From the NCBI RefSeq assembly GCF_001936335.1, contig NZ_CP018888.1, positions 682,001 through 746,000 of the forward strand: 64,000 bases of DNA, in the 5' to 3' direction. The notes below the pieces were generated by a model. That model had not been told where the DNA came from. It searched no databases and worked only from the letters and a program-made list of their open reading frames with translations. The position numbers and the translations under genes were made by a program. The DNA comes from Amylolactobacillus amylophilus DSM 20533 = JCM 1125. Its GTDB lineage: Bacteria > Bacillota > Bacilli > Lactobacillales > Lactobacillaceae. This document shows, piece by piece, positions 43,472 to 59,613 of this stretch; position 1 is the first letter of the stretch; each line of letters starts with the position of its first letter.

Positions 43472-44380
43472 TTAAGCAGCGGCTCGATTTCGGTATTCAA
43501 CCGGAGTCAGGCCGTTTTTGTTTAGTGAAATACGATGATTGTTGTACCAATCAATGTAATCTTCCACTTCTTTTACTAGTGCTTCAAAGTTTGAAAGCTT
43601 GCGGCGATTGAGCCGTTCTCGTTTCATCAGGCTAAAGAAACTTTCTATTGGTGCATTGTCATGGCAATTACCTTTTCTTGACATGCTGGGCACAATTCCC
43701 AGTTGTTTTATTGCTTCTTGGTACTCTCTAGTTTGATATTGCCACCCCTGATCTGAATGCAGAATAGAATTACTATTCATTGGTAACTTCTCCGATAGAT
43801 TTTCGATTGTCTTATTAAGTTGTTCCTTGTTGGCACTCTTTGATACAACTGCGGTAAGTATTTCTCTGCTGGCTTGGTCTAATACCGCAGAGATATATCC
43901 CCACGTTCCATCTGCTAATCTGACTTGCGTAATATCTGTGTGCATTACAGCGAAAGGTGTCGTCTCGTCGAACTTCTGCTTAAGAAGATTATCATTCACA
44001 GTACCAATCTTACCTCTGTAGGAGGAATAACCGCTTGTGTGTCTTGAATACAGTGTGACGGACAATTTGAGTTGGCCCATTAGTCTTAGAATTGTATTCG
44101 GCGAGATCTTAAATCCTGCTTTTAAAGCTTCTCGATGAATTCTACGATATCCATATGTTTCATCTGACTCCTGAAATGCCTTTAAAATGAACTCTTTCAA
44201 ATTTGTGTATTTATCAGGTTTCTTGGCTCTCTTCAGACAATCATAGAAAGTAGATCTGGGTAACTTAAGCTCACTTAATAGTTCGTTCAACGGATATTTA
44301 GGCCTTAATGAGTTAATTACTTGTGCTTTGTGGATTGATCTTCTTCTCTCAGTAAGGCTTCGAATTTTTTGCGATATCAA
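43472..44380 (-). CDS. IS3-family transposase OrfB (DDE domain)
   Basis: 302 residues with an HTH_21-like start (YPLNELLSELKLPRSTFYDCL) and an rve integrase core: D in VMHTDITQVRL, D in LHSDQGWQY, E in NAPIESFFSLMK. Expressed in intact elements by ribosomal frameshifting from orfA at an A-rich site; here the A6 run sits at about 44365-44371. Start shown is a TTG and only the frame boundary. Confidence 0.88.
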   Translation of the reverse strand: MISQKIRSLTERRRSIHKAQVINSLRPKYPLNELLSELKLPRSTFYDCLKRAKKPDKYTNLKEFILKAFQESDETYGYRRIHREALKAGFKISPNTILRLMGQLKLSVTLYSRHTSGYSSYRGKIGTVNDNLLKQKFDETTPFAVMHTDITQVRLADGTWGYISAVLDQASREILTAVVSKSANKEQLNKTIENLSEKLPMNSNSILHSDQGWQYQTREYQEAIKQLGIVPSMSRKGNCHDNAPIESFFSLMKRERLNRRKLSNFEALVKEVEDYIDWYNNHRISLNKNGLTPVEYRNRAAA

Positions 44381-44402
44381 GTTTCATCTGGGCATGATAA
44401 AG

Positions 44403-44855
44403 TTATTCACGCAAGCGCATATTCTCTTGAATTAGTCTCTCTTTTTCGGCAGGACTGAGCTTGTCCTGTTTGTTTTTATGGGATTTTTTGGTCACGGTGG
44501 GTTTTCTTCCTTTCCGTTGGCGTCTCAATCCACTTGCCCCGTCTTCTTCAAATCTCTTATTCCAAGAACAGACTTGTGACGGACTAATATTAAACTTAGC
44601 TGCAACAATATGTACACCAACATCATGAGTTCGATAATAGTCTACCACAGCTAGTTTTTCGTCCGGAGAATATGATTTATATTGATGTGTTACTCGTAGT
44701 GATTCAAAGCCTTGCGCCTTTGCCTTGGCTGTCCATACACGAATGTTAGAAAGAGATTTAATGCCATACATTTGTGCCAGCGTTGAATATGAATACTTAC
44801 CTGATAAGTATTGTTTTGCCACCTCAATTTTTAAATCAGTTGAATATTTAGTCAT
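44403..44855 (-). pseudogene. IS3 OrfA, cut short by a stop codon
   Basis: 150 residues with two helix-turn-helix units (STLAQMYGIKSLSNIRVW; VAAKFNISPSQVCSWNKRF) and a basic linker. Compared with the second copy at 62 kb the codon GAA after NMRLRE's position has become TAA, so the frame ends before the leucine-zipper and frameshift site. OrfAB fusion transposase therefore cannot be made from this copy. Confidence 0.8.
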
Positions 44856-44874
44856 AGAAAATACCCCATAATTG

Positions 44875-45024
44875 TTAGATTATTTGTCTAACAATTATGG
44901 GGTACTTCAAGCTAAGGCGGTTATTTTTTTGCTGACTTTTGATCAGCCCAACAATTAATGCGATTAAGGCCACGATAAAAGTACCGAAAGCCAGCATTAA
45001 TTGTAAAGCGTCCGACACGGACAC
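44875..45024 (-). CDS. Holin-like type I toxin (Hol_Tox-like), 3' end replaced by IS sequence
   Basis: 49 codons from GTG with AAAGGAG nine bases upstream. Residues 1-31 have the short acidic start and single hydrophobic helix of small holin-like toxins (SVSDALQLML, then FIVALIALIVGLIKS), followed by QQKNNR. After about residue 37 the frame crosses into the IS3 right end and adds about ten IS-coded residues. The mRNA 5' end (TTAAGGCGGTGGC) is complementary to its 3' end (AACCGCCTTAGC), as in Fst-like systems. Family call is from pattern only. Confidence 0.6.
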   Translation of the reverse strand: MSVSDALQLMLAFGTFIVALIALIVGLIKSQQKNNRLSLKYPIIVRQII

Positions 45025-45410: not shown

Positions 45411-45551
45411 TTATCCATGTAATTTTTGTTGCAATGTATCACCAATGCCATCTACTTTCTTAGCAGCAAAGACGGTGCCACCGATGAGGACACCACCTAC
45501 AATGAGCGTAGAAGCGATCATAAACTTAAATACACTTTTCAAGACGTCCAT
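45411..45551 (-). CDS. Small single-helix membrane peptide of the stress operon
   Basis: 46 residues: short N-terminus MDVLKSVFKF, a hydrophobic segment (FMIASTLIVGGVLIGGTVFA) and a polar helix KKVDGIGDTLQQKLHG. It has an AAGGGGG ribosome site and lies 11 bases after the last glsB copy, so it is the final gene of the operon. No family name; it could be an exported or membrane-tethered peptide. Confidence 0.65.
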   Translation of the reverse strand: MDVLKSVFKFMIASTLIVGGVLIGGTVFAAKKVDGIGDTLQQKLHG

Positions 45552-45562
45552 AAAATTCCCCC

Positions 45563-45814
45563 TTACTTTTTACTGGTTCGACCAACAACTAATGAAACAA
45601 TCAGAACTAAAATAATTGCCCCGATGATCGATGGTATCAATGCCATGCCAGCTAACGAAGGGCCCCAAGTGCCAAGGAGCCCTTGACCAATCCACGCACC
45701 GATTAAACCAGCTACAATGTTTGCAATCCAGCCCATAGCAGCACCACGGTTAGTGATTGCGCCAGCAATGGCACCAATGATTGCCCCGACGATTAATGAC
45801 CAAATAAGTCCCAT
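45563..45814 (-). CDS. GlsB/YeaQ/YmgE-family membrane protein, tandem copy 4
   Basis: 83 residues with three hydrophobic, glycine-rich helices: GLIWSLIVGAIIGAIAGAI, WIANIVAGLIGAWIGQGLLG and a C-terminal IIGAIILVLIVSLVV. This is the transglycosylase-associated (Transgly_assoc) family induced by envelope stress; biochemical role unknown. Protein identical to the three other copies. At the DNA level it differs by a few bases (for example GGGCCCC where the others have GGACCCC). Confidence 0.9.
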   Translation of the reverse strand: MGLIWSLIVGAIIGAIAGAITNRGAAMGWIANIVAGLIGAWIGQGLLGTWGPSLAGMALIPSIIGAIILVLIVSLVVGRTSKK

Positions 45815-45828
45815 ATTTACTCACTCCC

Positions 45829-46080
45829 TTACTTTTTACTGGTTCGACCAACAACTAATGAAACAATCAGAACTAAAATAATTGCCCCGATGATCGATGG
45901 TATCAATGCCATGCCAGCTAACGAAGGACCCCAAGTGCCAAGGAGCCCTTGACCAATCCACGCACCGATTAAACCAGCTACAATGTTTGCAATCCAGCCC
46001 ATAGCAGCACCACGGTTAGTGATTGCGCCAGCAATGGCACCAATGATTGCCCCAACGATTAATGACCAAATAAGTCCCAT
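45829..46080 (-). CDS. GlsB/YeaQ/YmgE-family membrane protein, tandem copy 3
   Basis: Identical in protein sequence to the copies on either side (83 residues, three glycine-rich membrane helices). Each copy is preceded by TAAGGGAGTGAG, in which the stop codon of the upstream gene is part of the ribosome site, so the four genes are tightly coupled in translation. A silent change (CCCCAACG against CCCCGACG) marks this copy. Confidence 0.9.
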   Translation of the reverse strand: MGLIWSLIVGAIIGAIAGAITNRGAAMGWIANIVAGLIGAWIGQGLLGTWGPSLAGMALIPSIIGAIILVLIVSLVVGRTSKK

Positions 46081-46094
46081 ATTTACTCACTCCC

Positions 46095-46346
46095 TTACTT
46101 TTTACTGGTTCGACCAACAACTAATGAAACAATCAGAACTAAAATAATTGCCCCGATGATCGATGGTATCAATGCCATGCCAGCTAACGAAGGACCCCAA
46201 GTGCCAAGGAGCCCTTGACCAATCCACGCACCGATTAAACCAGCTACAATGTTTGCAATCCAGCCCATAGCAGCACCACGGTTAGTGATTGCGCCAGCAA
46301 TGGCACCAATGATTGCCCCGACGATTAATGACCATATAAGTCCCAT
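46095..46346 (-). CDS. GlsB/YeaQ/YmgE-family membrane protein, tandem copy 2
   Basis: Identical in protein to the other three copies. Shares with copy 1 the base pattern GACCATAT at its start (the others have GACCAAAT), so copies 1 and 2 appear to be the most recent duplicate pair or to have been converted. Confidence 0.9.
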   Translation of the reverse strand: MGLIWSLIVGAIIGAIAGAITNRGAAMGWIANIVAGLIGAWIGQGLLGTWGPSLAGMALIPSIIGAIILVLIVSLVVGRTSKK

Positions 46347-46360
46347 ATTTACTCACTCCC

Positions 46361-46612
46361 TTACTTTTTACTGGTTCGACCAACAACTAATGAAACAATC
46401 AGAACTAAAATAATTGCCCCGATGATCGATGGTATCAATGCCATGCCAGCTAACGAAGGACCCCAAGTGCCAAGGAGCCCTTGACCAATCCACGCACCGA
46501 TTAAACCAGCTACAATGTTTGCAATCCAGCCCATAGCAGCACCACGGTTAGTGATTGCGCCAGCAATGGCACCAATGATTGCCCCGACGATTAATGACCA
46601 TATAAGTCCCAT
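46361..46612 (-). CDS. GlsB/YeaQ/YmgE-family membrane protein, tandem copy 1
   Basis: First of four identical 83-residue proteins; begins 14 bases after the asp23-like gene. In enterococci glsB lies beside gls24 and takes part in bile/envelope stress resistance; the same pairing is seen here. Multiple copies would raise the amount of this membrane protein relative to Asp23. Confidence 0.9.
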   Translation of the reverse strand: MGLIWSLIVGAIIGAIAGAITNRGAAMGWIANIVAGLIGAWIGQGLLGTWGPSLAGMALIPSIIGAIILVLIVSLVVGRTSKK

Positions 46613-46626
46613 ATTTACTCACTCCC

Positions 46627-47169
46627 TTACTTAACACGACTAGATTTATTGTCAGACGTTACTTTATCAACGCTGTCACCTAATGTTTCCTTCGATTTCT
46701 TTGCGCCCTTACTGACGGCTTCCTTCGTTTTGTCTGTGGCATCGCTCACGCGATCTTGCAGAGAAGTCGAATCTTTTTCATATTGCTCCTTTGTCTTGAC
46801 ATCAACAACATTCACATTTACCTCAATTACTTCTAATTCGGTCATATTCTTTACTTCCCGAACGATAACATTTTTGATCTTGTCATACAGTTTAGAAATA
46901 TCAATGCCGTATTCAGCAACAATGTCGAGATCCACTGCAACCTGCTTTTTTCCAACCTCTACATCAATTCCTGATGTGACATCTGAAGTATTAACTAGTT
47001 TTTCAGCAACATTTGCGAAAAAGCCGCCATCTACGGTTAATAAGCCATCTACTTCAGAAAGTGCGATACCAATGATCTTTTGAATAACCTTATCATCAAA
47101 TGTTAAATTACCTTTAACACCAGACTTTTCGTTAGTTGTTGTTTTCTCACTTGGCGTTCCATTCTGCAT
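46627..47169 (-). CDS. Asp23/Gls24-family envelope stress protein
   Basis: 180 residues. The Asp23 domain spans about residues 20-125 (LTFDDKVIQKIIGIALSEVDGLLTVDGG; VEVGKKQVAVDLDIVAEYG; LEVIEVNVNVVDV), followed by a Lys/Ser/Asp-rich charged tail. Asp23 proteins coat the inner face of the membrane through the anchor AmaP, which is encoded two genes upstream. Third gene of the operon. Confidence 0.92.
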   Translation of the reverse strand: MQNGTPSEKTTTNEKSGVKGNLTFDDKVIQKIIGIALSEVDGLLTVDGGFFANVAEKLVNTSDVTSGIDVEVGKKQVAVDLDIVAEYGIDISKLYDKIKNVIVREVKNMTELEVIEVNVNVVDVKTKEQYEKDSTSLQDRVSDATDKTKEAVSKGAKKSKETLGDSVDKVTSDNKSSRVK

Positions 47170-47196
47170 AATTTTTCCTCCTTATAATTCAAACAG

Positions 47197-47382
47197 TTAT
47201 TTAAAAACATTTGTTAAGATACCAGTTTTTTGAATATAATAACCCGCGGTAATCCCGATTGCCATAAAAATCAAAACAAAAAGCGTCTTGAAAAATCCAA
47301 AAGTGATGATAAGGACCGCTAAGAGCAATCCCATAATTCCACCAATTAGTGGCCAAAAATAGGCTTTAATGAGTTCGGTCAC
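47197..47382 (-). CDS. DUF2273-family small membrane protein
   Basis: 61 residues, two transmembrane helices (KAYFWPLIGGIMGLLLAVLII and LFVLIFMAIGITAGYYI) with short polar ends. DUF2273 proteins are regular neighbours of amaP and asp23 in Firmicutes; function unknown. Confidence 0.88.
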   Translation of the reverse strand: MTELIKAYFWPLIGGIMGLLLAVLIITFGFFKTLFVLIFMAIGITAGYYIQKTGILTNVFK

Positions 47383-47393
47383 GATATCACCTC

Positions 47394-47954
47394 CTAGACA
47401 ACTCGAGATTTATGCACATTAGCGTCCAACTCATTAAAATCAACGAGTCTGATTTTAATTTTTTTCTGTTCAGAAATTCCAAGACAAATACGCAAATCTT
47501 TTTTTAATTGATTAAGAAAATTTGCAGTCTGTTGCTTGGCATTGACTGAATTTAGTAGATCACCCGATATTTTAAGTGTGATCCCTTTTCGTGATAACTT
47601 AGATGATACCTTGGGGTTGCCAATAAAGGGTTCATGTTGAAGTGCTGAAAGCGCAAAATGTTCAATAGCTTTCTTACTGATGGTCACTTGACCATCAGAC
47701 TTCTGATGAAGATATAATGATTGTGACCGTGGCCAAAAAAGTGTGATAAGCAAAAAAATAATTAACAGTACCGCCAGAATTACTCCACTCCAAAAGAGGT
47801 ATATCGGTTCGTACTGCTCCAACCAACCAAGCTTTAATGACATGGGTGTACTAGTACCAATGGCCGTTGACCAATTTTTAAAGACAAGAACTATGGATAA
47901 AGGAAATGCAAGGATAATAACAACTACTATTAATGCCTTAAATATAAATCGCAA
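47394..47954 (-). CDS. amaP: Alkaline-shock membrane anchor protein AmaP
   Basis: 186 residues: two transmembrane helices (about 5-27 and 54-76) and a cytosolic Asp23-like domain (VTISKKAIEHFALSALQHE … GITLKISGDLL). AmaP anchors Asp23 to the membrane in Staphylococcus. First gene of the operon amaP-DUF2273-asp23-glsB x4-small peptide, all on the minus strand. Confidence 0.85.
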   Translation of the reverse strand: MRFIFKALIVVVIILAFPLSIVLVFKNWSTAIGTSTPMSLKLGWLEQYEPIYLFWSGVILAVLLIIFLLITLFWPRSQSLYLHQKSDGQVTISKKAIEHFALSALQHEPFIGNPKVSSKLSRKGITLKISGDLLNSVNAKQQTANFLNQLKKDLRICLGISEQKKIKIRLVDFNELDANVHKSRVV

Positions 47955-48543: not shown

Positions 48544-48606
48544 GTTTAGCTTATATATTTGCTTGTGGAATTTAAAAAAACTTTTTTTAAAAAAGGAAAG
48601 ATATTA

Positions 48607-49224
48607 ATGACTAAAATAGGGTATGCACGAGTAAGTAGCAAAGAACAGAACTTAGATCGGCAATTACAAGCGTTACAGGGCGTTTCTAAGGTCTTTTCAG
48701 ACAAAGCAAGCGGTCAATCGGTCGAACGCCCACAATTACAAGCTATGCTTAACTATATTCGTGAAGGGGATATTGTTATTGTTACTGAATTAGATCGATT
48801 AGGACGAAATAATAAAGAATTAACAGAATTGATGAATCAAATTCAAATTAAGGGGGCAACCCTGGAAGTATTGAACCTTCCTTCCATGACAGGGATTGAA
48901 GATGAAAATTTAAGGCGTTTGATTAATAATTTAGTGATTGAATTATATAAGTATCAAGCTGAATCTGAACGTAAACGTATTAAAGAACGACAAGCCCAAG
49001 GAATTGAAATAGCTAAGTCAAAAGGAAAATTCAAGGGTCGTCAGCATAAATTTAAAGAAAATGATCCACGTTTAAAACATGCTTTTGATTTATTTTTGAA
49101 TGGTTTATCCGATAAAGAAGTTGAAGAACAAACTGGAATTAATCGCCGAACGTTTAGAAGGTATCGATCAAGATATAACGTGACAGTAGATCAAAGAAAA
49201 AACAATGAAAAGAGGGATAGTTAA
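48607..49224 (+). CDS. Serine recombinase/resolvase (plasmid type, Res-beta-like)
   Basis: 205 residues. Resolvase domain KIGYARVSSKEQNLDRQLQAL with catalytic Ser in YARVSS, DRLGRNNKELTELM, helix E, and a C-terminal helix-turn-helix (LSDKEVEEQTGINRRTFRRYR). Such resolvases sit directly before a topoisomerase gene on Inc18-type enterococcal plasmids, and the same order is seen here with a topoisomerase stub. ATG 48607 with AAAAAAGGAAAG is preferred to the upstream TTG frame. Confidence 0.88.
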   Translation: MTKIGYARVSSKEQNLDRQLQALQGVSKVFSDKASGQSVERPQLQAMLNYIREGDIVIVTELDRLGRNNKELTELMNQIQIKGATLEVLNLPSMTGIEDENLRRLINNLVIELYKYQAESERKRIKERQAQGIEIAKSKGKFKGRQHKFKENDPRLKHAFDLFLNGLSDKEVEEQTGINRRTFRRYRSRYNVTVDQRKNNEKRDS

Positions 49225-49482: not shown

Positions 49483-50061
49483 TTATCTGCCTCTAAAAGC
49501 TTTTAATGCTTCTTCTAGCTCCTCATCAACGATATGGGTGTAAATCTGTGTAGAAGATATATCAGCATGTCCTAGAGCCTTCTGGACGATTCTAAGGTTC
49601 TTTGTTTCCCTTAATAGATCGCTTGCAAAGGTATGTCGCAAACTATGGGTCGTAATGTGCTTCTTTATTCCTGCCTTGTCTGAATAGGTCTTAATCATGC
49701 TTCTAACAGCTTTTCCATCAAGTGAATGTAAAGTCCTTGTAGTAAAGACTAAATCGCTCCTACCCCACTCTTTAAACTGCCTTTGTTTCCATTTCCCTAA
49801 CATACTAAGGGTTTCTTCATTTAGCCAGAGGATTCGATCTTTCAATCCTTTTCCTTCAACTACTTTTAATTGTCCCGTCATTAGATCTATATCATTCCAT
49901 TTAAGGTTTGTTAGTTCTGCCAATCTTAACCCTGTATTTAAAAGAAGCTGAATCATTGTTTGATTTCTTTGAGGTGTAATGTATCTTAAATTAAACTGAT
50001 TTAGTAACCTTTCTTGTTCATCTAATGAAAATATCTTGGGTACTGAAGTCTTTTTCAACAT
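49483..50061 (-). CDS. Tyrosine recombinase, catalytic domain only (N-terminally cut)
   Basis: From about residue KIFSLDEQERLL to the end all catalytic residues of a tyrosine recombinase are present: R in GLRLAELTNLKW, H-x-x-R in HSLRHTFAS, H in LGHADISSTQ and Y in TQIYTHI. The N-terminal core-binding domain is missing; sequence before ~50035 belongs to dps in another frame. ATG 50061 is a possible accidental start. Without the arm domain recombination activity is doubtful. Confidence 0.75.
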   Translation of the reverse strand: MLKKTSVPKIFSLDEQERLLNQFNLRYITPQRNQTMIQLLLNTGLRLAELTNLKWNDIDLMTGQLKVVEGKGLKDRILWLNEETLSMLGKWKQRQFKEWGRSDLVFTTRTLHSLDGKAVRSMIKTYSDKAGIKKHITTHSLRHTFASDLLRETKNLRIVQKALGHADISSTQIYTHIVDEELEEALKAFRGR

Positions 50062-50413
50062 CGGATACTTCAATGCCGTGTTGGTAAAGGTCTTCCAAGT
50101 AACGATAGCCATCAACTAAGTGTGCGAGGCGTTCTGGGGTTGTTTTGTCCCATTCACCAGGCCAGTCTTGAATCTTAGTGTTTTCGGCCATTTCTTTTAA
50201 GGTGGAGTAAGGACTGCCATCAAGCGCAATCAGCCGTTCAGAAATGACATCGAGTTGGCTGTCAATTTCTTCCATGAACTCATCCATCAAGGGGTGCAAC
50301 TTCAAAAAGTTGGGTCCACGCATGTACCAATGCGTCTGATGGATAATCATTGACATCTGGCTCAAATCGGCAACGAGTTGATTTAATACTGCTTTGGTTT
50401 TCGTATATTTCAT
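50018..50413 (-). pseudogene. dps: Dps-like ferritin, C-terminally truncated
   Basis: 131 residues; ferroxidase-site motif MIIHQTHWYMRGPNFLKLHPLMDEFMEE and ERLIALDGSP are intact. The protein stops at DIFIR just where a Dps would enter its last helix; normal length is about 155-180. The stop arises because recombinase sequence is joined at about 50021-50035, where the two sequences share GATATTTTCATTAGATGA. Iron oxidation might persist but 12-mer assembly is doubtful. Strong SD (GGAGACC) and an own promoter region upstream. Confidence 0.75.
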
Positions 50414-51494: not shown

Positions 51495-52303
51495 GGTTCT
51501 GTTGCAAAGTTTTAAATAAAGAATAAAATCCCTTACGGTATCTATGATTTAAGCTGGGATTCCCAATAATACCTTGATTTCAGTACAGACCGAAAACCCG
51601 AAGAGAGTGCCTTCTTTTCGGGTTTTCTTATATAATCCTCGAATGGCTTCCATGCCTTTAATCGTGGTAGAGGCAGTGCGTAAACTTCGATAGAATTTAT
51701 TGCGTCTCTTTACTGGACGATGGTCTTGTTCAATCAAATTATTCAGGTATTTAATGGTACGATGTTCTGTCCCTTGATAAAAGCCGTATTCTTTTAGTTT
51801 CTTAAAGGCACTTGTAATAGAGGGGGCTTTATCTGTGACTACAACCTTCGGTTCATCAAACTGCTTCACTAACCGCTTAAGAAAAGCATAGGCTGCTTGT
51901 GTGTCCCGTTTTTTACGTAACCAAATATCCAAGGTTAAACCATCTGCATCGATGGCTCGATACAAATAATGCCATTTTCCTTTAATTTTGATGTACGTTT
52001 CATCCATTTTCCATGAATAAAAGGATTTTTTATTTTTCTTTTTCCAAATTTGATAGAGTAGTTTGCCATATTCTTGCACCCAACGATAAATCGTCGTATG
52101 AGAAACGTTAATGTCACGATCATATAAGATTTCTTGAACTTCACGATAGCTAAGGTTATAACGAAGATAGTAGCCCACGGCTACAATAATCACATCCTGC
52201 TGAAATTGCTTTCCTTTAAAATGATTCATCGTCATTCCTCCTGCTATCTTTTTCTATTATTCTACCTTATTTGATAGTAGATTTAAAACTTTGCAACAGA
52301 ACC
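51495..52303 (-). mobile_element. IS1216 (IS6 family), copy 1
   Basis: 809 bp, terminal inverted repeats GGTTCTGTTGCAAAGTTTTA. Same sequence and orientation as the copy at 57355-58163. The inner flank 52304-52311 is GCCACAGG, the outer flank 51487-51494 is AAAGTAAA. Confidence 0.96.
51549..52235 (-). CDS. IS1216 transposase
   Basis: 228-residue IS6-family DDE transposase: N-terminal helix-turn-helix (LSYREVQEILYDRDINVSHTT), first D in SWKMDETYIKIKG, second in VVTDKAPSI, E in NNLIEQDHRPVKRR. Complete, so able to act in replicative transposition and cointegrate formation. Start ATG 52235; ATG two codons on is equally possible. Confidence 0.95.
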   Translation of the reverse strand: MTMNHFKGKQFQQDVIIVAVGYYLRYNLSYREVQEILYDRDINVSHTTIYRWVQEYGKLLYQIWKKKNKKSFYSWKMDETYIKIKGKWHYLYRAIDADGLTLDIWLRKKRDTQAAYAFLKRLVKQFDEPKVVVTDKAPSITSAFKKLKEYGFYQGTEHRTIKYLNNLIEQDHRPVKRRNKFYRSLRTASTTIKGMEAIRGLYKKTRKEGTLFGFSVCTEIKVLLGIPA

Positions 52304-52311
52304 GCCACAGG
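52304..52311. repeat. 8-bp target duplication of IS1216, left inner copy
   Basis: GCCACAGG, identical to 57347-57354 at the inner edge of the other IS1216. Confidence 0.93.
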
Positions 52312-52461
52312 TTCAGTTGAAATAATCTCTTTCCAATTCTCTGGCAAACTTTCAGGATAAACAACAATCCACCAGTTACGACCTCGCTTATAAGGCTGTT
52401 TAGTTTTTGGATTTAAATTCTTTCTAGGCAATGTCCAATCTGTTCTATTTTCATTTTCCAT
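52304..52461 (-). pseudogene. Rolling-circle replication protein Rep, N-terminal part (split by IS1216)
   Basis: 52 to 53 residues beginning MENENRTDWTLPRKNL, with NWWIVVYPESLPENW, the N-terminal pattern of pMV158/pLS1-type RepB (…YPESIPSDW…). The coding sequence ends at STEPVA where IS1216 has entered. It continues in frame in the fragment 56866-57354: the 8 bases CCTGTGGC (minus strand) occur at both breakpoints, and joining them gives STEPVAISPLHDKD, the active metal-binding motif region. Confidence 0.9.
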
Positions 52462-52550
52462 ATTTTTCTACACCTTCCTAGTTACTCTACTAGGAAAACA
52501 AGGGAAAATTTGATAAACTTGAGTTGCGAAATCAAAGAAAACCAAATCTT

Positions 52551-52588
52551 GCGAGCCCTTGCTATCTTCCTAGCAGGGCTTTTTTTAT
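52551..52588 (+). terminator. Hairpin terminator in the cop-rep gap, likely of the antisense copy-control RNA
   Basis: GAGCCCTTGCTA … TAGCAGGGCTTTTTTT: stem plus seven T on the plus strand, opposite to cop-rep transcription. In pMV158-type plasmids a short antisense RNA made from this gap blocks rep translation and ends in such a hairpin. Its promoter is not clearly seen. Confidence 0.55.
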
Positions 52589-52740
52589 TTAAAAATAGTC
52601 CCCTTATCATCAGCTTGATTAATTAAAAATGTAACCAAACCTGATTTAGTCATTCCATATTTTTGTGCCATTTTTTCTAGTTTGTCATTCGATTCAACAG
52701 GTAAAGATAAAGTCACTTTTTTCTTCTCAACTTCAACCAC
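52585..52740 (-). CDS. CopG-family copy-number repressor
   Basis: 51 residues from GTG: VEKKKVTLSLPVESNDKLEK (ribbon strand) followed by two helices (MAQKYGMTKSGLVTFLINQA), a ribbon-helix-helix fold. It lies upstream of rep on the same strand, the cop-rep order of pMV158-type rolling-circle plasmids, where CopG represses the cop-rep promoter. It was too short for an automatic frame list. Confidence 0.82.
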   Translation of the reverse strand: MVEVEKKKVTLSLPVESNDKLEKMAQKYGMTKSGLVTFLINQADDKGTIFK

Positions 52741-52903
52741 AAAATACACCTCAATTCTCTTCAAAATCTCTTTTACACTGTAATTATATTATACATACGA
52801 CAGGAATACAAGATTTTACAAAAAACTTTTTTTCACCTCGAAATAGGTGCTTAAAACGTTCATATAAAGGTATTTACAAGACATTTAATCTTTTTATCTA
52901 TTT

Positions 52904-52949
52904 GGACAATGGACAATGGACACATGGGGGGTGTCGTAGTGCCCCCATG
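52904..52949. other. Double-strand origin (dso) of the rolling-circle plasmid
   Basis: Direct repeats GGACAAT-GGACAAT-GGACA (52904-52922) adjoin a hairpin with arms CATGGGGG (52923-52930) and CCCCCATG (52942-52949). On the minus strand the loop holds ACTACGAC (52940-52933), which matches the pMV158 RepB nick motif TACTACG/AC. This is the expected place, upstream of cop-rep. Confidence 0.8.
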
Positions 52950-53130
52950 AGTTGGTCGATTTTTTCAAAATCTCCCCCCAGTTTGCTTCCCAATTCCTAA
53001 AAACTAATAAAACCGCGGGCGTTGCCCACACCCACAAACGCAATGCGTTTGATCATGCCTCTGAAAAGTAGCTAAACATTCACACCTGTTGGCTTTCCGT
53101 CGTCTATGCAAAAGCTAAATGACAACAAAA

Positions 53131-53180
53131 AAAGCTGCAAGGGTAAATGCACTCACTACGTTCGCCCTTGCTGCTTTTTC
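53131..53180 (-). terminator. Terminator after the mob remnant
   Basis: AGCTGCAAGGGTAAA … TTCGCCCTTGCTGCTT stem; T-run on the minus strand. Equivalent to the one at 55256-55300 but with compensating base differences. Confidence 0.65.
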
Positions 53181-53276
53181 TATTGCCATTTTTAACGCTT
53201 ATGCCGACGAAAAGACCAAACAGGTATAAATATACTCGAATTGATTTAAAACGCCTTAAAACGCAAATATGAGCTT

Positions 53277-53654
53277 CTAACGACTTAATTCATCTCTATC
53301 TCGTGTTCGAGTTTCATTTCTATGAATTTTTTCAAACTCTCCACCTTTTACAAACTCTTTAATTTCGCTCACAAGGTTATTCATGAGCTTTTTAGCTTGT
53401 CCAACAGTTGCACCAAGGGTATTTTCCATAAACTGATTAAAACCTCTGTAAATGCCCTTAATTTCGTTTTTAAGCGATTTATTCTCTTTCTCCAACGAAT
53501 CAATTTTCTCTAAATTATTATTAAATCTATCTGCCAAATCATTGTAATCACGCACTACCTCTTTGTATTTGCCTTTTACGTAATCAATTCTTTTTGGTAA
53601 ATCTGTTTCTGCATATTTTTTTAGTTGCTCATTCGATTTATATAAATCTTCATA
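53277..53654 (-). pseudogene. MobV relaxase C-terminal remnant
   Basis: The frame (92 residues from ATG 53555, in-frame codons visible to ~53654: [20 protein letters not shown]) matches the coiled-coil C-terminus of the complete MobV at 55402: identical at [17 protein letters not shown] and [15 protein letters not shown], different in the middle (QFMENTLGATVGQAKKLM against [18 protein letters not shown]). The relaxase domain is absent; upstream is the erm(B) trailing ORF. Confidence 0.85.
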
Positions 53655-53715
53655 ATAATTTATCTACATTCCCTTTAGTAACGTGTAACTTTCCAAATTT
53701 ACAAAAGCGACTCAT
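53650..53715 (-). pseudogene. Start of the ORF that follows erm(B)
   Basis: ATG 53715 four bases after the erm(B) stop, ribosome site GGGAGGAAA inside the end of erm(B). Codes MSRFCKFGKLHVTKGNVDK, then stops (TGA) where the mob remnant joins. It recalls the small ORF found directly after erm(B) in related plasmids, here cut to 21 residues. Confidence 0.6.
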
Positions 53716-53719
53716 AGAA

Positions 53720-54457
53720 TTATTTCCTCCCGTTAAATAATAGATAACTATTAAAAATAGACAATACTTGCTCATAAGTAACGGTACTTAAATTGTTTAC
53801 TTTGGCGTGTTTCATTGCTTGATGAAACTGATTTTTAGTAAACAGTTGACGATATTCTCGATTGACCCATTTTGAAACAAAGTACGTATATAGCTTCCAA
53901 TATTTATCTGGAACATCTGTGGTATGGCGGGTAAGTTTTATTAAGACACTGTTTACTTTTGGTTTAGGATGAAAGCATTCCGCTGGCAGCTTAAGCAATT
54001 GCTGAATCGAGACTTGAGTGTGCAAGAGCAACCCTAGTGTTCGGTGAATATCCAAGGTACGCTTGTAGAATCCTTCTTCAACAATCAGATAGATGTCAGA
54101 CGCATGGCTTTCAAAAACCACTTTTTTAATAATTTGTGTGCTTAAATGGTAAGGAATATTCCCAACAATTTTATACCTCTGTTTGTTAGGGAATTGAAAC
54201 TGTAGAATATCTTGGTGAATTAAAGTGACACGAATGTTCAGTTTTAATTTTTCTGACGATAAGTTGAATAGATGACTGTCTAATTCAATAGACGTTACCT
54301 GTTTACTTATTTTAGCCAGTTTCGTCGTTAAATGCCCTTTACCTGTTCCAATTTCGTAAACGGTATCGGTTTCTTTTAAATTCAATTGTTTTATTATTTG
54401 GTTGAGTACTTTTTCACTCGTTAAAAAGTTTTGAGAATATTTTATATTTTTGTTCAT
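53720..54457 (-). CDS. erm(B): 23S rRNA (adenine2058-N6)-dimethyltransferase Erm(B)
   Basis: 245 residues, full length. Dimethylates A2058 and so gives macrolide-lincosamide-streptogramin B resistance. KsgA/Erm fold: [19 protein letters not shown] motif [23 protein letters not shown], and catalytic motif [17 protein letters not shown] (N-I-P-Y). Preceded by a leader peptide gene (54582-54665) and the gap that forms the attenuator. The whole unit lies on a small plasmid between two IS1216. Confidence 0.97.
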
Positions 54458-54581
54458 GTAATCACTCCTGAAGTGATTACATCTGTAAATAAATACAGAA
54501 GTTAAATGATTTGTTTGTAATTTTAGTTATCTGTTTAAAAAGTCATAAGATTAGTCACTGGTAGGAATTAATCTAACGTAT

Positions 54582-54665
54582 TTATTTATCTGCGTAATCA
54601 CTGTTTTTAGTCTGTTTCAAAACAGTAGATGTTTTATCTACATTACGCATTTTGAATACCAACAT
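54582..54665 (-). CDS. erm(B) leader peptide (ErmBL)
   Basis: 27 residues from ATG 54665 with AAGGAGGG upstream, ending in NSDYADK. Macrolide-bound ribosomes stall on this peptide (at the VDK region, Asp10) and open the erm(B) ribosome site. The start reads MLVFKMRNVDK: residue 5 is Lys where the form I remember has Gln (CAA to AAA). Confidence 0.88.
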   Translation of the reverse strand: MLVFKMRNVDKTSTVLKQTKNSDYADK

Positions 54666-54722
54666 GACGAATCCCTCCTTCTTAATTACAAATTTTTAGC
54701 ATCTAATTTAACTTCAATTCCT

Positions 54723-54728
54723 ATTATA
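54723..54728 (-). promoter_or_regulatory. -10 element of the erm(B) promoter
   Basis: Minus strand TATAAT about 58 bases before the leader ATG; a TTGATA lies 21 bases upstream of it, so the -35 is not optimal. Confidence 0.55.
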
Positions 54729-54729
54729 C

Positions 54730-55134
54730 AAAATTTTAAGATAATGCACTATCAACACACTCTTAAGTTTGCTTCTAAGTCTTATTTCCATAACTTTAGG
54801 GTTAACCATACGCAAGACCAATCACTCTCGGACAATACTCATGATTTTAATGATAAAATCCATGTTAAACCCATAGATAAGAAATACACCTGCAATAACC
54901 GTTACCTGTTTGTGCCAATTTAAAAATGCACCACTTTTTTATAATTAAAACGGTTGAAAACTGTACCACTAATAACTCACAATAGAGAGATGTCACCGTC
55001 AAGTTAAATGTACAAAATAACAGCGAAATTTTTAAATCTATTTCTTATCGATACAAATTCCTCGTAGGCGCTCGGGACCCCTAATAGTATCAAGATAAGA
55101 AGAAAAGGGTATTTTGCTCCGCAAAAACCCTTTT
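54730..55134. other. Non-coding stretch upstream of erm(B)
   Basis: No credible gene in ~400 bases. It carries fragments that seem to come from the previous context of erm(B), including the block CCTCGTAGGCGCTCGGGACC at about 55060, then a shift into mob-flank repeat B at 55135. Confidence 0.45.
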
Positions 55135-55779
55135 AAAAACCGTGGGCTTCCGCCCACCCCTGACAAACGCAATGCGTTTGATCATGCCTCTGAAAAGTAG
55201 CTTTATCACGTAATTACTTTTCGTCGCTCAGCAAAAGCTAAATGCCTAAAATAAAAAGACAAGGGTAAACGTTGCTCACGTTGTTCGCCCTTGTCTTTAT
55301 TATTTATAGCCATTTTAAACGCTTATGCCGACGAAAAGTAATAATCACGTGTAAATATACTCGAATTGATTTAAAACGTCTTAGAACGCAAATATGAGCT
55401 TCTAACGACTTAATTCATCTCTATCTCGTGTTTGAGTTTCATTTCTATGAATTTTTTCAAATTCTCCACCTTTTACAAATTCTTTTACTTTGTCTAAAAC
55501 GCCACTAACAAGCGTTTTAACCTGTTCAGTTGTAACTTGCTTAGAATCTTTAAAGTACTCTTTAAACCCTTTGTAAATGCCCTTAATTTCGTTTTTAAGC
55601 GATTTATTCTCTTTCTCCAACGAATCAATTTTCTCTAGATTATTATTATATCTATCTGCTAAATCGTTGAAATCACGCACTACTTCCTTGTATTTTTCTT
55701 TTACATAGTCAATCCGCTTAGGTAAATCAGTTTCCGCATATTTCTTTAGTTTCTCATTCGATTTATATAAATCTTCATA
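55135..55779. repeat. ~0.65-kb repeat B of the mob 3' region
   Basis: Partner of 53009-53654 in the same orientation; contains the 3' end of the complete mob gene and its terminator. Confidence 0.85.
55256..55300 (-). terminator. Terminator of mob
   Basis: AAGACAAGGG … CCCTTGTCTT hairpin, T-run on the minus strand, 100 bases after the mob stop. Confidence 0.7.
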
Positions 55780-56613
55780 GCCTTGTATTAAGGCATTTAA
55801 TTTATCTTCAGGGATAATCACATTTCCTGTTTTTCGTTCTTCATTTTTCGTAAATTCATGTCGCAACTTACCAATACCAATGGTTTCGCCACTTGGTACT
55901 TTGACCGTTTTCGTTTCGTCTTTTAAATCTAAACTTTCTTTCTTGATTGTTGGTGTTTTATCGTTCGATAACGCTAAAACTTCTGACTTCCGCTGTTCCA
56001 GCGTGGTAGTCAGCTCTTTTAATTCATCCTTTGCCTTTTTATATTCAGGCACTGTTAAATTTTTACGCTCTGACCCTTTTTCGCCACGTTCAAGCTCAAA
56101 ACCACGCTCATTTAAATACTTTGGCAATTCGTCTTGTACCGCTTGTAAGGCTTGACGATTAAAAACAGTCTTTGCTGATAGCTTGTGTTCGTCATTAAAC
56201 GGCACAATTCCTAAGTGCATATGCGGTGTCGTTTCGTCTAAGTGAACTTGAGCATAGCGGATATTCTCATCACCAAATTTTTCTGAAAAATATGATTTAG
56301 CAACTTCAAAATAATCTTTAATTTCTTTACTATCTTTATCTTTAAAAAATTGGTTGTCAGAAGTTATGATCCATTCGTTTATTAATACAGCATCTTTTCT
56401 GACAGCACGACTACTTGATTTGTTGTCGTTAATAAATTGCTCAATATCTCGTTTATAATTTTCTGTCCGATTGACCAAATCATAATTTAAATGTGACCGT
56501 TCAACATCAATATCTTTGTTGGAATGATTGTCTGTATTTCTCTGATTATGATTACCTACCCCAACTAAATTTCCTGATTTTACCTTCTGCATTCTCGCCA
56601 CTACAAATGACAT
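55402..56613 (-). CDS. mob: MobV-family relaxase (Mob/Pre)
   Basis: 403 residues. N-terminal relaxase domain starts [24 protein letters not shown] with motif I; the metal/HxDExTPHxH motif is [17 protein letters not shown], diagnostic of the MobV (pMV158 MobM/pUB110 Pre) family. The C-terminal half is coiled coil ([18 protein letters not shown]). ATG 56613 with TTAGGAG is preferred; the frame extends 16 codons into oriT. It nicks oriT just upstream for mobilisation by a helper conjugative element. Confidence 0.93.
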
Positions 56614-56645
56614 ATAAACACTCCTAACTTCGGGACAGCTTCCAT

Positions 56646-56671
56646 GTAAAGTATAACCCACTATACTTTAC
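56646..56671. other. oriT of the mobilizable plasmid (MobV type)
   Basis: Inverted repeat GTAAAGTATA … TATACTTTAC 33 bases upstream of mob. On the minus strand it reads AAAGTATAGTG-GGTTATACTTTAC, close to the pMV158 nick region TATAGTG/TGTTATACTTT. Confidence 0.85.
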
Positions 56672-56817
56672 TTCGTAAAGGTGGGCTCGCCTAGGGGTCT
56701 TGCAGACGGCTTATTCGGCTCTTTTGAGCCGAGTATCAGCGCACCCTTATGGTGCAATTAGCTGATACAAAAAACAAAGAGTTGGCTCATGTAATCCAAC
56801 TCTTAAAACACAAAAAA

Positions 56818-56858
56818 ATAACCCCCTTGGCTTTTCAGCAGGGGGCATATTTTTTATT
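56818..56858. terminator. Terminator after rep
   Basis: CCCCCTTGGCTTTTCAGCAGGGGG hairpin with T/A-rich tails on both sides, 10-40 bases after the Rep stop. A second smaller hairpin (AAGAGTTGG … CCAACTCTT) lies at about 56777-56806. Confidence 0.75.
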
Positions 56859-56865
56859 TAATTCC

Positions 56866-57354
56866 TCACTCTTTATAAACTTGGTTTTCTTTTTGCCAAT
56901 TCGATTTTATGTACTCTTTTATAAAAAGAGTATTCCTCTCTGTTAGCAATTCGAACCAACCAGCAGGAGCTCGGTCAGACATACAATAATCAGCAAAATC
57001 TTTTAAATGCATAATATTGTTATCCGAAATAAAACCAAGCATTTCTTTTAACGCTTGTCTTTTATCACCAGTAGATAACGCTAAACAACTTTCAAGGTCA
57101 AATCCACCAAACACTTGTATTTCTGTATTATCGTATTGATACTTTTCAGGATTATCCATATGCGTTAAATATCTAACAGCACCAGTTAAACCACTTATTC
57201 TTTCAGGAATCGGTGCCCTTAAAGCTCTTGCCATTTCGTCCATTTGTTCAAATGATTTATTGCCCTTGTAATTAAAAACTATATGATAATGCGGCTTTTT
57301 CTTTGTTCCGTCTGCATTAACATCTTTATCATGTAATGGACTAATTGCCACAGG
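56866..57354 (-). pseudogene. Rep protein, C-terminal part (split by IS1216)
   Basis: About 160 residues starting at the IS1216 edge with PVAISPLHDKDVNADG, the metal-coordinating and active region of RepB-type (Rep_2) initiators: AISPLHDKD, KKPHYHIVF (HxH-like motif), and the catalytic-region VRYLTHMDNPEKYQY. An internal ATG-like frame start (57351) is only formal. Joined with 52304-52461 it makes a full 212-residue Rep, the size of pMV158 RepB (210). Confidence 0.9.
57347..57354. repeat. 8-bp target duplication of IS1216, right inner copy
   Basis: GCCACAGG, equal to 52304-52311. Confidence 0.93.
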
Positions 57355-58163
57355 GGTTCTGTTGCAAAGTTTTAAATAAAGAATAAAATCCCTTACGGTA
57401 TCTATGATTTAAGCTGGGATTCCCAATAATACCTTGATTTCAGTACAGACCGAAAACCCGAAGAGAGTGCCTTCTTTTCGGGTTTTCTTATATAATCCTC
57501 GAATGGCTTCCATGCCTTTAATCGTGGTAGAGGCAGTGCGTAAACTTCGATAGAATTTATTGCGTCTCTTTACTGGACGATGGTCTTGTTCAATCAAATT
57601 ATTCAGGTATTTAATGGTACGATGTTCTGTCCCTTGATAAAAGCCGTATTCTTTTAGTTTCTTAAAGGCACTTGTAATAGAGGGGGCTTTATCTGTGACT
57701 ACAACCTTCGGTTCATCAAACTGCTTCACTAACCGCTTAAGAAAAGCATAGGCTGCTTGTGTGTCCCGTTTTTTACGTAACCAAATATCCAAGGTTAAAC
57801 CATCTGCATCGATGGCTCGATACAAATAATGCCATTTTCCTTTAATTTTGATGTACGTTTCATCCATTTTCCATGAATAAAAGGATTTTTTATTTTTCTT
57901 TTTCCAAATTTGATAGAGTAGTTTGCCATATTCTTGCACCCAACGATAAATCGTCGTATGAGAAACGTTAATGTCACGATCATATAAGATTTCTTGAACT
58001 TCACGATAGCTAAGGTTATAACGAAGATAGTAGCCCACGGCTACAATAATCACATCCTGCTGAAATTGCTTTCCTTTAAAATGATTCATCGTCATTCCTC
58101 CTGCTATCTTTTTCTATTATTCTACCTTATTTGATAGTAGATTTAAAACTTTGCAACAGAACC
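57355..58163 (-). mobile_element. IS1216 (IS6 family), copy 2
   Basis: 809 bp, apparently identical to copy 1 and in the same orientation. Outer flank 58164-58171 is TACAGTCG, which does not match the outer flank of copy 1. Confidence 0.96.
57409..58095 (-). CDS. IS1216 transposase, second copy
   Basis: 228 residues, same protein as at 51549-52235; all three DDE residues present. Confidence 0.95.
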   Translation of the reverse strand: MTMNHFKGKQFQQDVIIVAVGYYLRYNLSYREVQEILYDRDINVSHTTIYRWVQEYGKLLYQIWKKKNKKSFYSWKMDETYIKIKGKWHYLYRAIDADGLTLDIWLRKKRDTQAAYAFLKRLVKQFDEPKVVVTDKAPSITSAFKKLKEYGFYQGTEHRTIKYLNNLIEQDHRPVKRRNKFYRSLRTASTTIKGMEAIRGLYKKTRKEGTLFGFSVCTEIKVLLGIPA

Positions 58164-58681: not shown

Positions 58682-58948
58682 TCAATTGTGTTTTGACCGT
58701 CGAACCCATGCCCACTGAACCACGAACATCATTATCAGAACGACGGCAATTGCACCGATTGCAGCTGGTATCACGGTCATTCCGGCTAACTCAGACCCCA
58801 TCGGCACCAGCACACCTTCACCAATGAGTGCCCCAAGGACGCCAGCAATAATGTGACCGATCCAACCCCGCGATTGACTGGGGCTCATGATAGCACCTGC
58901 AAAATCACCAACCGCCGCGCCAACAATCATTACCCATAACCAATGCAT
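58682..58948 (-). CDS. GlsB/YeaQ/YmgE-like membrane protein (divergent)
   Basis: 88 residues, three hydrophobic segments with the family pattern WLWVMIVGAAVGDFAGAIMSPSQSRGWIGHIIAGVLGALIGEG, then a third helix and a basic end RRSKHN. Clearly related to, but much diverged from, the 45.5-46.6 kb copies. AAAAAGGGATG ribosome site. Last of three small genes on the minus strand. Confidence 0.85.
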   Translation of the reverse strand: MHWLWVMIVGAAVGDFAGAIMSPSQSRGWIGHIIAGVLGALIGEGVLVPMGSELAGMTVIPAAIGAIAVVLIMMFVVQWAWVRRSKHN

Positions 58949-59153: not shown

Positions 59154-59402
59154 TTACTGCGGCTGAAGCGCCTGGGCAGCAACGGTTCCGATCACAATAA
59201 GTATCATCGCCCCGCTCACGACTGGCAACAACGTCATTCCAGCAACTGTTGGCCCGAACCATCCAAAAGACAGCTGGCCACCAAGTACACCGAATAAGCC
59301 TGCGATTAAATTAATTGTCGTTTGACGCCGACCATGTGCGCCTAACGCATTTGCAACGATACCTATTGTTAGTCCTAATATCGCAACACCTATCCATCCC
59401 AT
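59154..59402 (-). CDS. GlsB/YeaQ/YmgE-like membrane protein
   Basis: 82 residues from ATG 59402 (GGAGCG upstream): GWIGVAILGLTIGIVANALG, then INLIAGLFGVLGGQLSFGWFGPTVAGMTLLPVVSGAMILIV. Transgly_assoc family pattern. The frame is open to 59516 but without a ribosome site there. First gene of a three-gene stress-like operon, divergent from the lipid kinase. Confidence 0.8.
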   Translation of the reverse strand: MGWIGVAILGLTIGIVANALGAHGRRQTTINLIAGLFGVLGGQLSFGWFGPTVAGMTLLPVVSGAMILIVIGTVAAQALQPQ

Positions 59403-59613
59403 TGTTAACACGCTCCATCCCGATATTGTGTGATTAAAATTATCATAACTATAATATTTATATTGAGCAATCAAAATGCTCATTGACCCGACTAATTCAG
59501 TAATGATGCATATCATTTCCAGTCAAACTAGTGTTCAAGCTATACTGAGACTATAAAAAGCTTACTAAATAAGCGATGAATAAACTTAATTTTTTAATCA
59601 AGAGGCGATTGTC

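Follow-up and report, generated by a model that had tools for sequence, protein, structure and literature searches.

Why does one operon of a Lactobacillaceae genome carry the same small gene four times in succession, and how did the copies arise? The operon lies at 45411-47954 of the window (the whole stretch of 64,000 nucleotides analyzed here), with all genes on the minus strand in the order amaP, DUF2273, asp23, four copies of glsB and an ORF of 46 residues. The first gene, amaP (47394-47954), encodes an Asp23 membrane anchor of 186 aa (NCBIfam NF033218, anchor_AmaP, 122.9 bits with a cut-off of 55) and is annotated as such in plasmid relatives. It is followed by a gene for a small DUF2273 membrane protein of 61 aa (47197-47382; PF10031, 58.8 bits) and by asp23/gls24 with 180 aa (46627-47169; PF03780, 104.7 bits), while GlsB itself matches Transgly_assoc (PF04226, 42 bits). 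The Asp23 domain, AmaP anchor, GlsB and DUF2273 proteins that mark an Asp23/Gls24 envelope-stress operon are therefore all present. These Pfam and NCBIfam matches agree with a first-pass annotation, which had placed a glsB array within an amaP-asp23 stress operon and whose range covers the entire operon from amaP through the terminal ORF. The latter (45411-45551) occurs at the same place in plasmid relatives, as WP_003681696, and has no match in Pfam or NCBIfam. Scans for promoters and terminators gave results no better than those from shuffled sequences. Comparison of GlsB with solved structures found no convincing relative, the best hit (E 0.0037, entry T32-15-1) being apparently a designed protein. 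The AlphaFold model is weak (mean pLDDT 65.7, pTM 0.33), and its three long helices and one short helix are as expected for a small membrane protein.

The array consists of four head-to-tail units of 266 bp (45560-46632), each encoding the same GlsB of 83 residues. In transcript order the genes are copy 1 (46361-46612), copy 2 (46095-46346), copy 3 (45829-46080) and copy 4 (45563-45814), and their translations are identical. Tandem Repeats Finder reported a period of 266 with 4.0 copies, 99% matches and 0% indels (score 2118), and a repeat search returned unit spacings of 266, 266 and 266, far beyond chance. Only three positions vary per unit, and all three changes are silent, for which the probability is about 0.02 under random single-base change. 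These are position 12 of the gene (A, A, T and T across copies 1 to 4), position 27 (C, C, T and C) and position 153 (T, T, T and C). At positions 12/27/99/129/153, copy 1 has the haplotype A-C-T-T-T, copy 2 is identical to it in DNA, copy 3 has T-T-T-T-T and copy 4 has T-C-T-T-C. Each stop codon falls inside the ribosome site of the next copy (AAG-TAA-GGGAGTGAGTAAAT-ATG), with 14 nt from stop to start. Identical proteins in an exact tandem, a few silent differences and stops placed within ribosome sites were all described in the first-pass annotation, and each of these descriptions holds. Near-identical head-to-tail units with one junction repeated identically are the marks of a tandem amplification, and the arrangement TAAGGGAGTGAGTAAATATG with its gap of 14 nt is, at sequence level, that of a coupled gene chain. 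The mRNA at the junctions folds no better than shuffled sequences (z 0.35 to 1.6), thus giving no structural sign of translational coupling. Because 266 is not a multiple of 3, neighboring copies lie in different frames; together with the separate start and stop of each copy, this rules out fusion or read-through.

The usual state of the operon was established from its relatives. When 72,556 plasmids were searched at DNA level, it was present on 45 records from many genera of lactobacilli, at 93-99% DNA identity (mostly 95-99%); the cassette is a horizontally mobile envelope-stress operon. In one record the match is confined to the first 393 bases of the query, so glsB is present in the other 44. 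Copy number was taken from match length for all records and read directly from the sequence for 19 plasmid loci. A single glsB is present in 43 of the 44 records, two are present in pLDW-12 of Pediococcus inopinatus and four in the window. That usual operons hold one copy, as had been stated beforehand, is hence confirmed, and the proposed comparison of relatives gives one or two copies against four here, so that a fixed number of four in every relative, which would have spoken against the earlier interpretation, does not apply. The two copies of pLDW-12 are also in tandem, with the 266-bp period and the internal junction AAGTAAGGGAGTGAG found in the window. Nineteen further genome contigs bearing the cassette, many of them short-read assemblies, have one glsB each. 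A degenerate pattern of the internal junction matched two of 401 genomes of the family, this one and G245; the latter match is very probably the same record as pLDW-12 and not an independent case. The pattern had no match in the genome-contig and viral-contig collections, which for genome contigs is weak evidence, since many of these are short-read assemblies that may collapse identical arrays. In a survey of 298 genomes of the order, 232 had a GlsB relative and, among the matches listed, adjacent glsB genes with 100% identity were seen only in this genome. No Asp23 match was found in the only other genome of the genus compared, a 65% complete assembly, and a search of the literature for tandem arrays of identical glsB found none. 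On the Lactobacillus reuteri plasmid L017 (1484-4793) the operon is present twice in divergent orientation, the second lacking an annotated amaP and having a shortened GlsB, which is another route to higher dosage.

The junctions suggest how the array began. The motif TAAGGG is found at its upstream edge (46624-46629, minus strand), where it comprises the stop of asp23 and the start of the ribosome site of copy 1, between the copies (46358-46363, 46092-46097 and 45826-45831) and at the downstream edge (45560-45565), where it comprises the stop of copy 4 and the start of the next ribosome site. Where the cassette has a single glsB, its junction with asp23 is typically AACTAAGGGAGTGAG and that with the next gene is AAGTAAGGGGGAATT. 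TAAGGG is common to both ends of glsB, exactly 266 bp apart, in 7 of 7 single-copy cassettes tested. The microhomology at the join is 6 bp in five of these and 8 bp in the other two (L. salivarius and L. mali), and a match of at least 6 bp occurs in just about 0.2% of position pairs drawn at random 200-330 bp apart in the cassettes. The internal junctions of both arrays are as a join inside TAAGGG would produce them, with the left part from the end of glsB and the right part from its start. In the window the end of asp23 is AAGTAAGGG, like the internal junctions, with AAC in most relatives; the last residue is Lys here and Asn in most relatives. This end could come from a small conversion or a mutation.

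The array is thus probably a tandem amplification of glsB that was seeded at TAAGGG and expanded by recombination, likely giving more GlsB per transcript. Replication slippage or template switching would have produced the first duplication by joining the TAAGGG between glsB and the next gene to that between asp23 and glsB. Once two copies were present, recombination between the 266-bp units may have raised the number to four, a step that we infer, and would also have evened out the copies. With a stop codon and ribosome site as the seed, no new copy would have lost its translation signals. In Escherichia coli, microhomology was found at 40 of 40 sequenced junctions of lac amplifications (PMC3161906), and RecA is required to expand an existing duplication (PMC2656507). 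Against this explanation, a microhomology of 6 bp is short, and the copies differ among themselves about as much as the operon differs from its plasmid relatives, which gives no sign of a fast-changing array. Furthermore, selection for copies with working ribosome sites could favor a join at TAAGGG whatever the mechanism. The likely origin at a repeat of stop codon and ribosome site is the new part of the finding. More tentatively, and in our judgment doubtfully, a UAAGG-type seed of this kind may have acted independently in this strain and in P. inopinatus, so that the dosage of glsB would be a setting of the mobile cassette that can evolve. Within this doubtful reading, UAAGG-type fusions recur at every junction of a compact operon and would therefore seed the duplication of single genes in one step with translation signals intact. 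If general, this rule would predict the operon genes that are open to one-step duplication, a prediction that can be tested in genomes at scale.

It is possible, although somewhat improbable, that one ancestral duplication lies behind both arrays. They have the same junction, the same period and the same order at position 12, with A first and T last, and on this account the T at position 99 would have spread later through the four window copies by gene conversion. This T is present in all four copies and absent from every other cassette read, a pattern that fits either a duplication within the lineage of the window or homogenization between the copies of an older, shared one. The amaP-asp23 tree does not support a group of the window and P. 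inopinatus, which both fall in an unresolved group of 21 rows, and is compatible with one shared duplication as well as with two independent ones. The divergence of the copies bears on the date. Across the six pairs of 266-bp units there are 10 differences, a mean of 0.63%, which is close to the 0.5-0.6% between amaP-asp23 of the window and that of the nearest plasmid relatives. The age of the array may therefore be similar to that of this branch of the cassette. The latest change is more recent, since copy 1 does not differ from copy 2. The first-pass annotation had considered the array recent or kept alike by gene conversion. That statement is supported, but recency by itself calls for caution, given a divergence about equal to that from the nearest plasmids.

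The same slip may also have left extra copies that bring no benefit and are merely still not lost, a neutral outcome that we consider unlikely. Tandem copies arise often in bacteria, only two lineages of many carry a glsB array, the setting is of an IS-rich plasmid type in which rearrangement is common, and asp23, amaP and glsB are present elsewhere on the chromosome. However, no copy is broken, all three differences are silent (chance about 0.02), and the difference of 0.63% within the array suggests that it has persisted long enough to gather and share mutations. Somewhat less probable still is unequal recombination between two different plasmid cassettes instead of slippage within one. At the five informative sites, the P. 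inopinatus copies read ACCCC and TCCCC, which are the two haplotypes seen most often in single-copy cassettes. The window array also combines two alleles at position 12, with A first and T last, and some plasmids hold two cassettes, such as L. reuteri L017. Nevertheless, the same pattern would follow from one mutation or conversion that affected position 12 later, and the T at position 99, found in all window copies and in no other cassette, points to a recent common source within the lineage. An assembly artefact with a lower true copy number is very unlikely, because although identical tandem repeats are a classic assembly problem, assemblers normally collapse rather than invent them, the copies can be told apart by silent changes and the internal junction recurs in a plasmid that was sequenced independently.

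The array would likely raise the amount of GlsB made from each transcript in relation to AmaP and Asp23. By analogy with other bacteria, it is plausible that a higher dosage helps the membrane to withstand acid, bile or similar stress. Overexpression of GlsB in Bifidobacterium animalis increased survival at pH 2.5 by 22-fold (PMC12731931), and acid and bile induce GlsB and CsbD in L. reuteri (PMC11471561). In Staphylococcus aureus, AmaP holds Asp23 at the membrane and the loss of either triggers a cell-wall stress response (PMC6954212), while gls24-glsB of Enterococcus faecalis is a stress operon whose gls24 mutants are bile-sensitive (PMC5383250). Extra GlsB may be unneeded here, since a separate glsB is present elsewhere in the genome, as is a chromosomal amaP-DUF2273-asp23 set. 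The first-pass annotation proposed that repeats so exact could gain or lose copies by slippage or recombination and thereby change dosage quickly. The array may possibly serve as such a switch, but a lasting gain in dosage, or a duplication under no selection, would leave the same picture. Judged by its sequence, it appears to be a real but modest case of gene-dosage increase. One small gene has here been multiplied to four copies inside an operon with every translation signal intact, for which the stop codon and ribosome site common to both glsB junctions indicate a simple sequence reason. The array suggests that selection acts on how much GlsB there is in proportion to Asp23 and AmaP in food-associated lactobacilli, whose acid tolerance is of practical value.

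Comparison with known systems separates the usual from the unusual. The plasmid cassette amaP-DUF2273-asp23-glsB-small ORF, for example in pSF118-20 of L. salivarius UCC118, shares gene order and junction sequences with the window but has one glsB in 43 of 44 records instead of four, and the window operon is in a chromosome-size contig. The plasmid pLDW-12 of P. inopinatus DSM 20285 (NZ_CP019982) is like the window in its tandem glsB, 266-bp period and junction, and differs in having two copies, with the haplotypes ACCCC and TCCCC that lack the T at position 99, and in still being a plasmid. The operons ef0077-ef0080 (gls24-glsB) of E. faecalis and glsB/glsB1 of E. faecium likewise bring Gls24/Asp23 and GlsB together in a stress or bile-salt operon (PMC5383250, PMC12844089). 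In E. faecium distinct glsB and glsB1 genes are listed, in contrast to the identical tandem array of the window, and a GlsB duplication has been reported in 99% of strains (PMC7396535). Adjacent glsB genes on the same strand, as in the window, are also found in Streptococcus (S. penaeicida, S. halichoeri and also S. uberis). However, these pairs are clearly diverged, with protein identities of 87-92% (in the two pairs measured without gaps) and irregular spacings of 307-487 bp, and are old duplications. Microhomology-joined amplifications in E. coli resemble the array in their head-to-tail units, short homology at the join and expansion by recombination (PMC3161906, PMC2656507). Those amplifications cover kilobases around a selected locus and are usually transient, whereas the unit here is a gene of 252 bp with a ribosome site of 14 nt. 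Both the operon and the process that altered it are known, and what is unusual is the copy number, the small unit and the seed at a stop codon and ribosome site.

The window is part of a single contig of 1,610,352 bp, and the operon is therefore now chromosomal, or in a fusion of chromosome and plasmid. Its surroundings are IS-rich, with transposases, a resolvase, a relaxase and a plasmid replication gene, and mostly match plasmids piecewise. Elsewhere in the same genome there is a chromosomal amaP-DUF2273-asp23 set without an adjacent glsB, in addition to a separate glsB. Within the window, two more GlsB-like genes are present on the minus strand (58682-58948 and 59154-59516), with 51% and 43% identity to the array protein. 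A fragment of a resistance plasmid was found at 51549-58095, with about 97% piecewise identity to NC_012628, a 4,031-bp plasmid of L. plantarum annotated with erm(B). In this fragment, two IS6-type transposases of identical protein sequence (51549-52235 and 57409-58095) flank an erm(B)-type 23S rRNA methyltransferase gene (53720-54457), a Mob_Pre relaxase and a plasmid Rep gene. A resolvase-type recombinase gene (48559-49224) lies near the upstream end of the operon, and several plasmids have a recombinase gene directly upstream of amaP in divergent orientation, which may contribute to the mobility of the cassette. A tyrosine recombinase ORF (49483-50115) overlaps the ORF of a Dps-like ferritin (50018-50413) on the same strand and looks like a disrupted or fused gene pair (49483-50413). 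Finally, an inverted repeat of 21 bp with 95% complementarity and a 7-bp loop (44859-44907) is located just outside the IS3-type transposase genes at 43472-44855.
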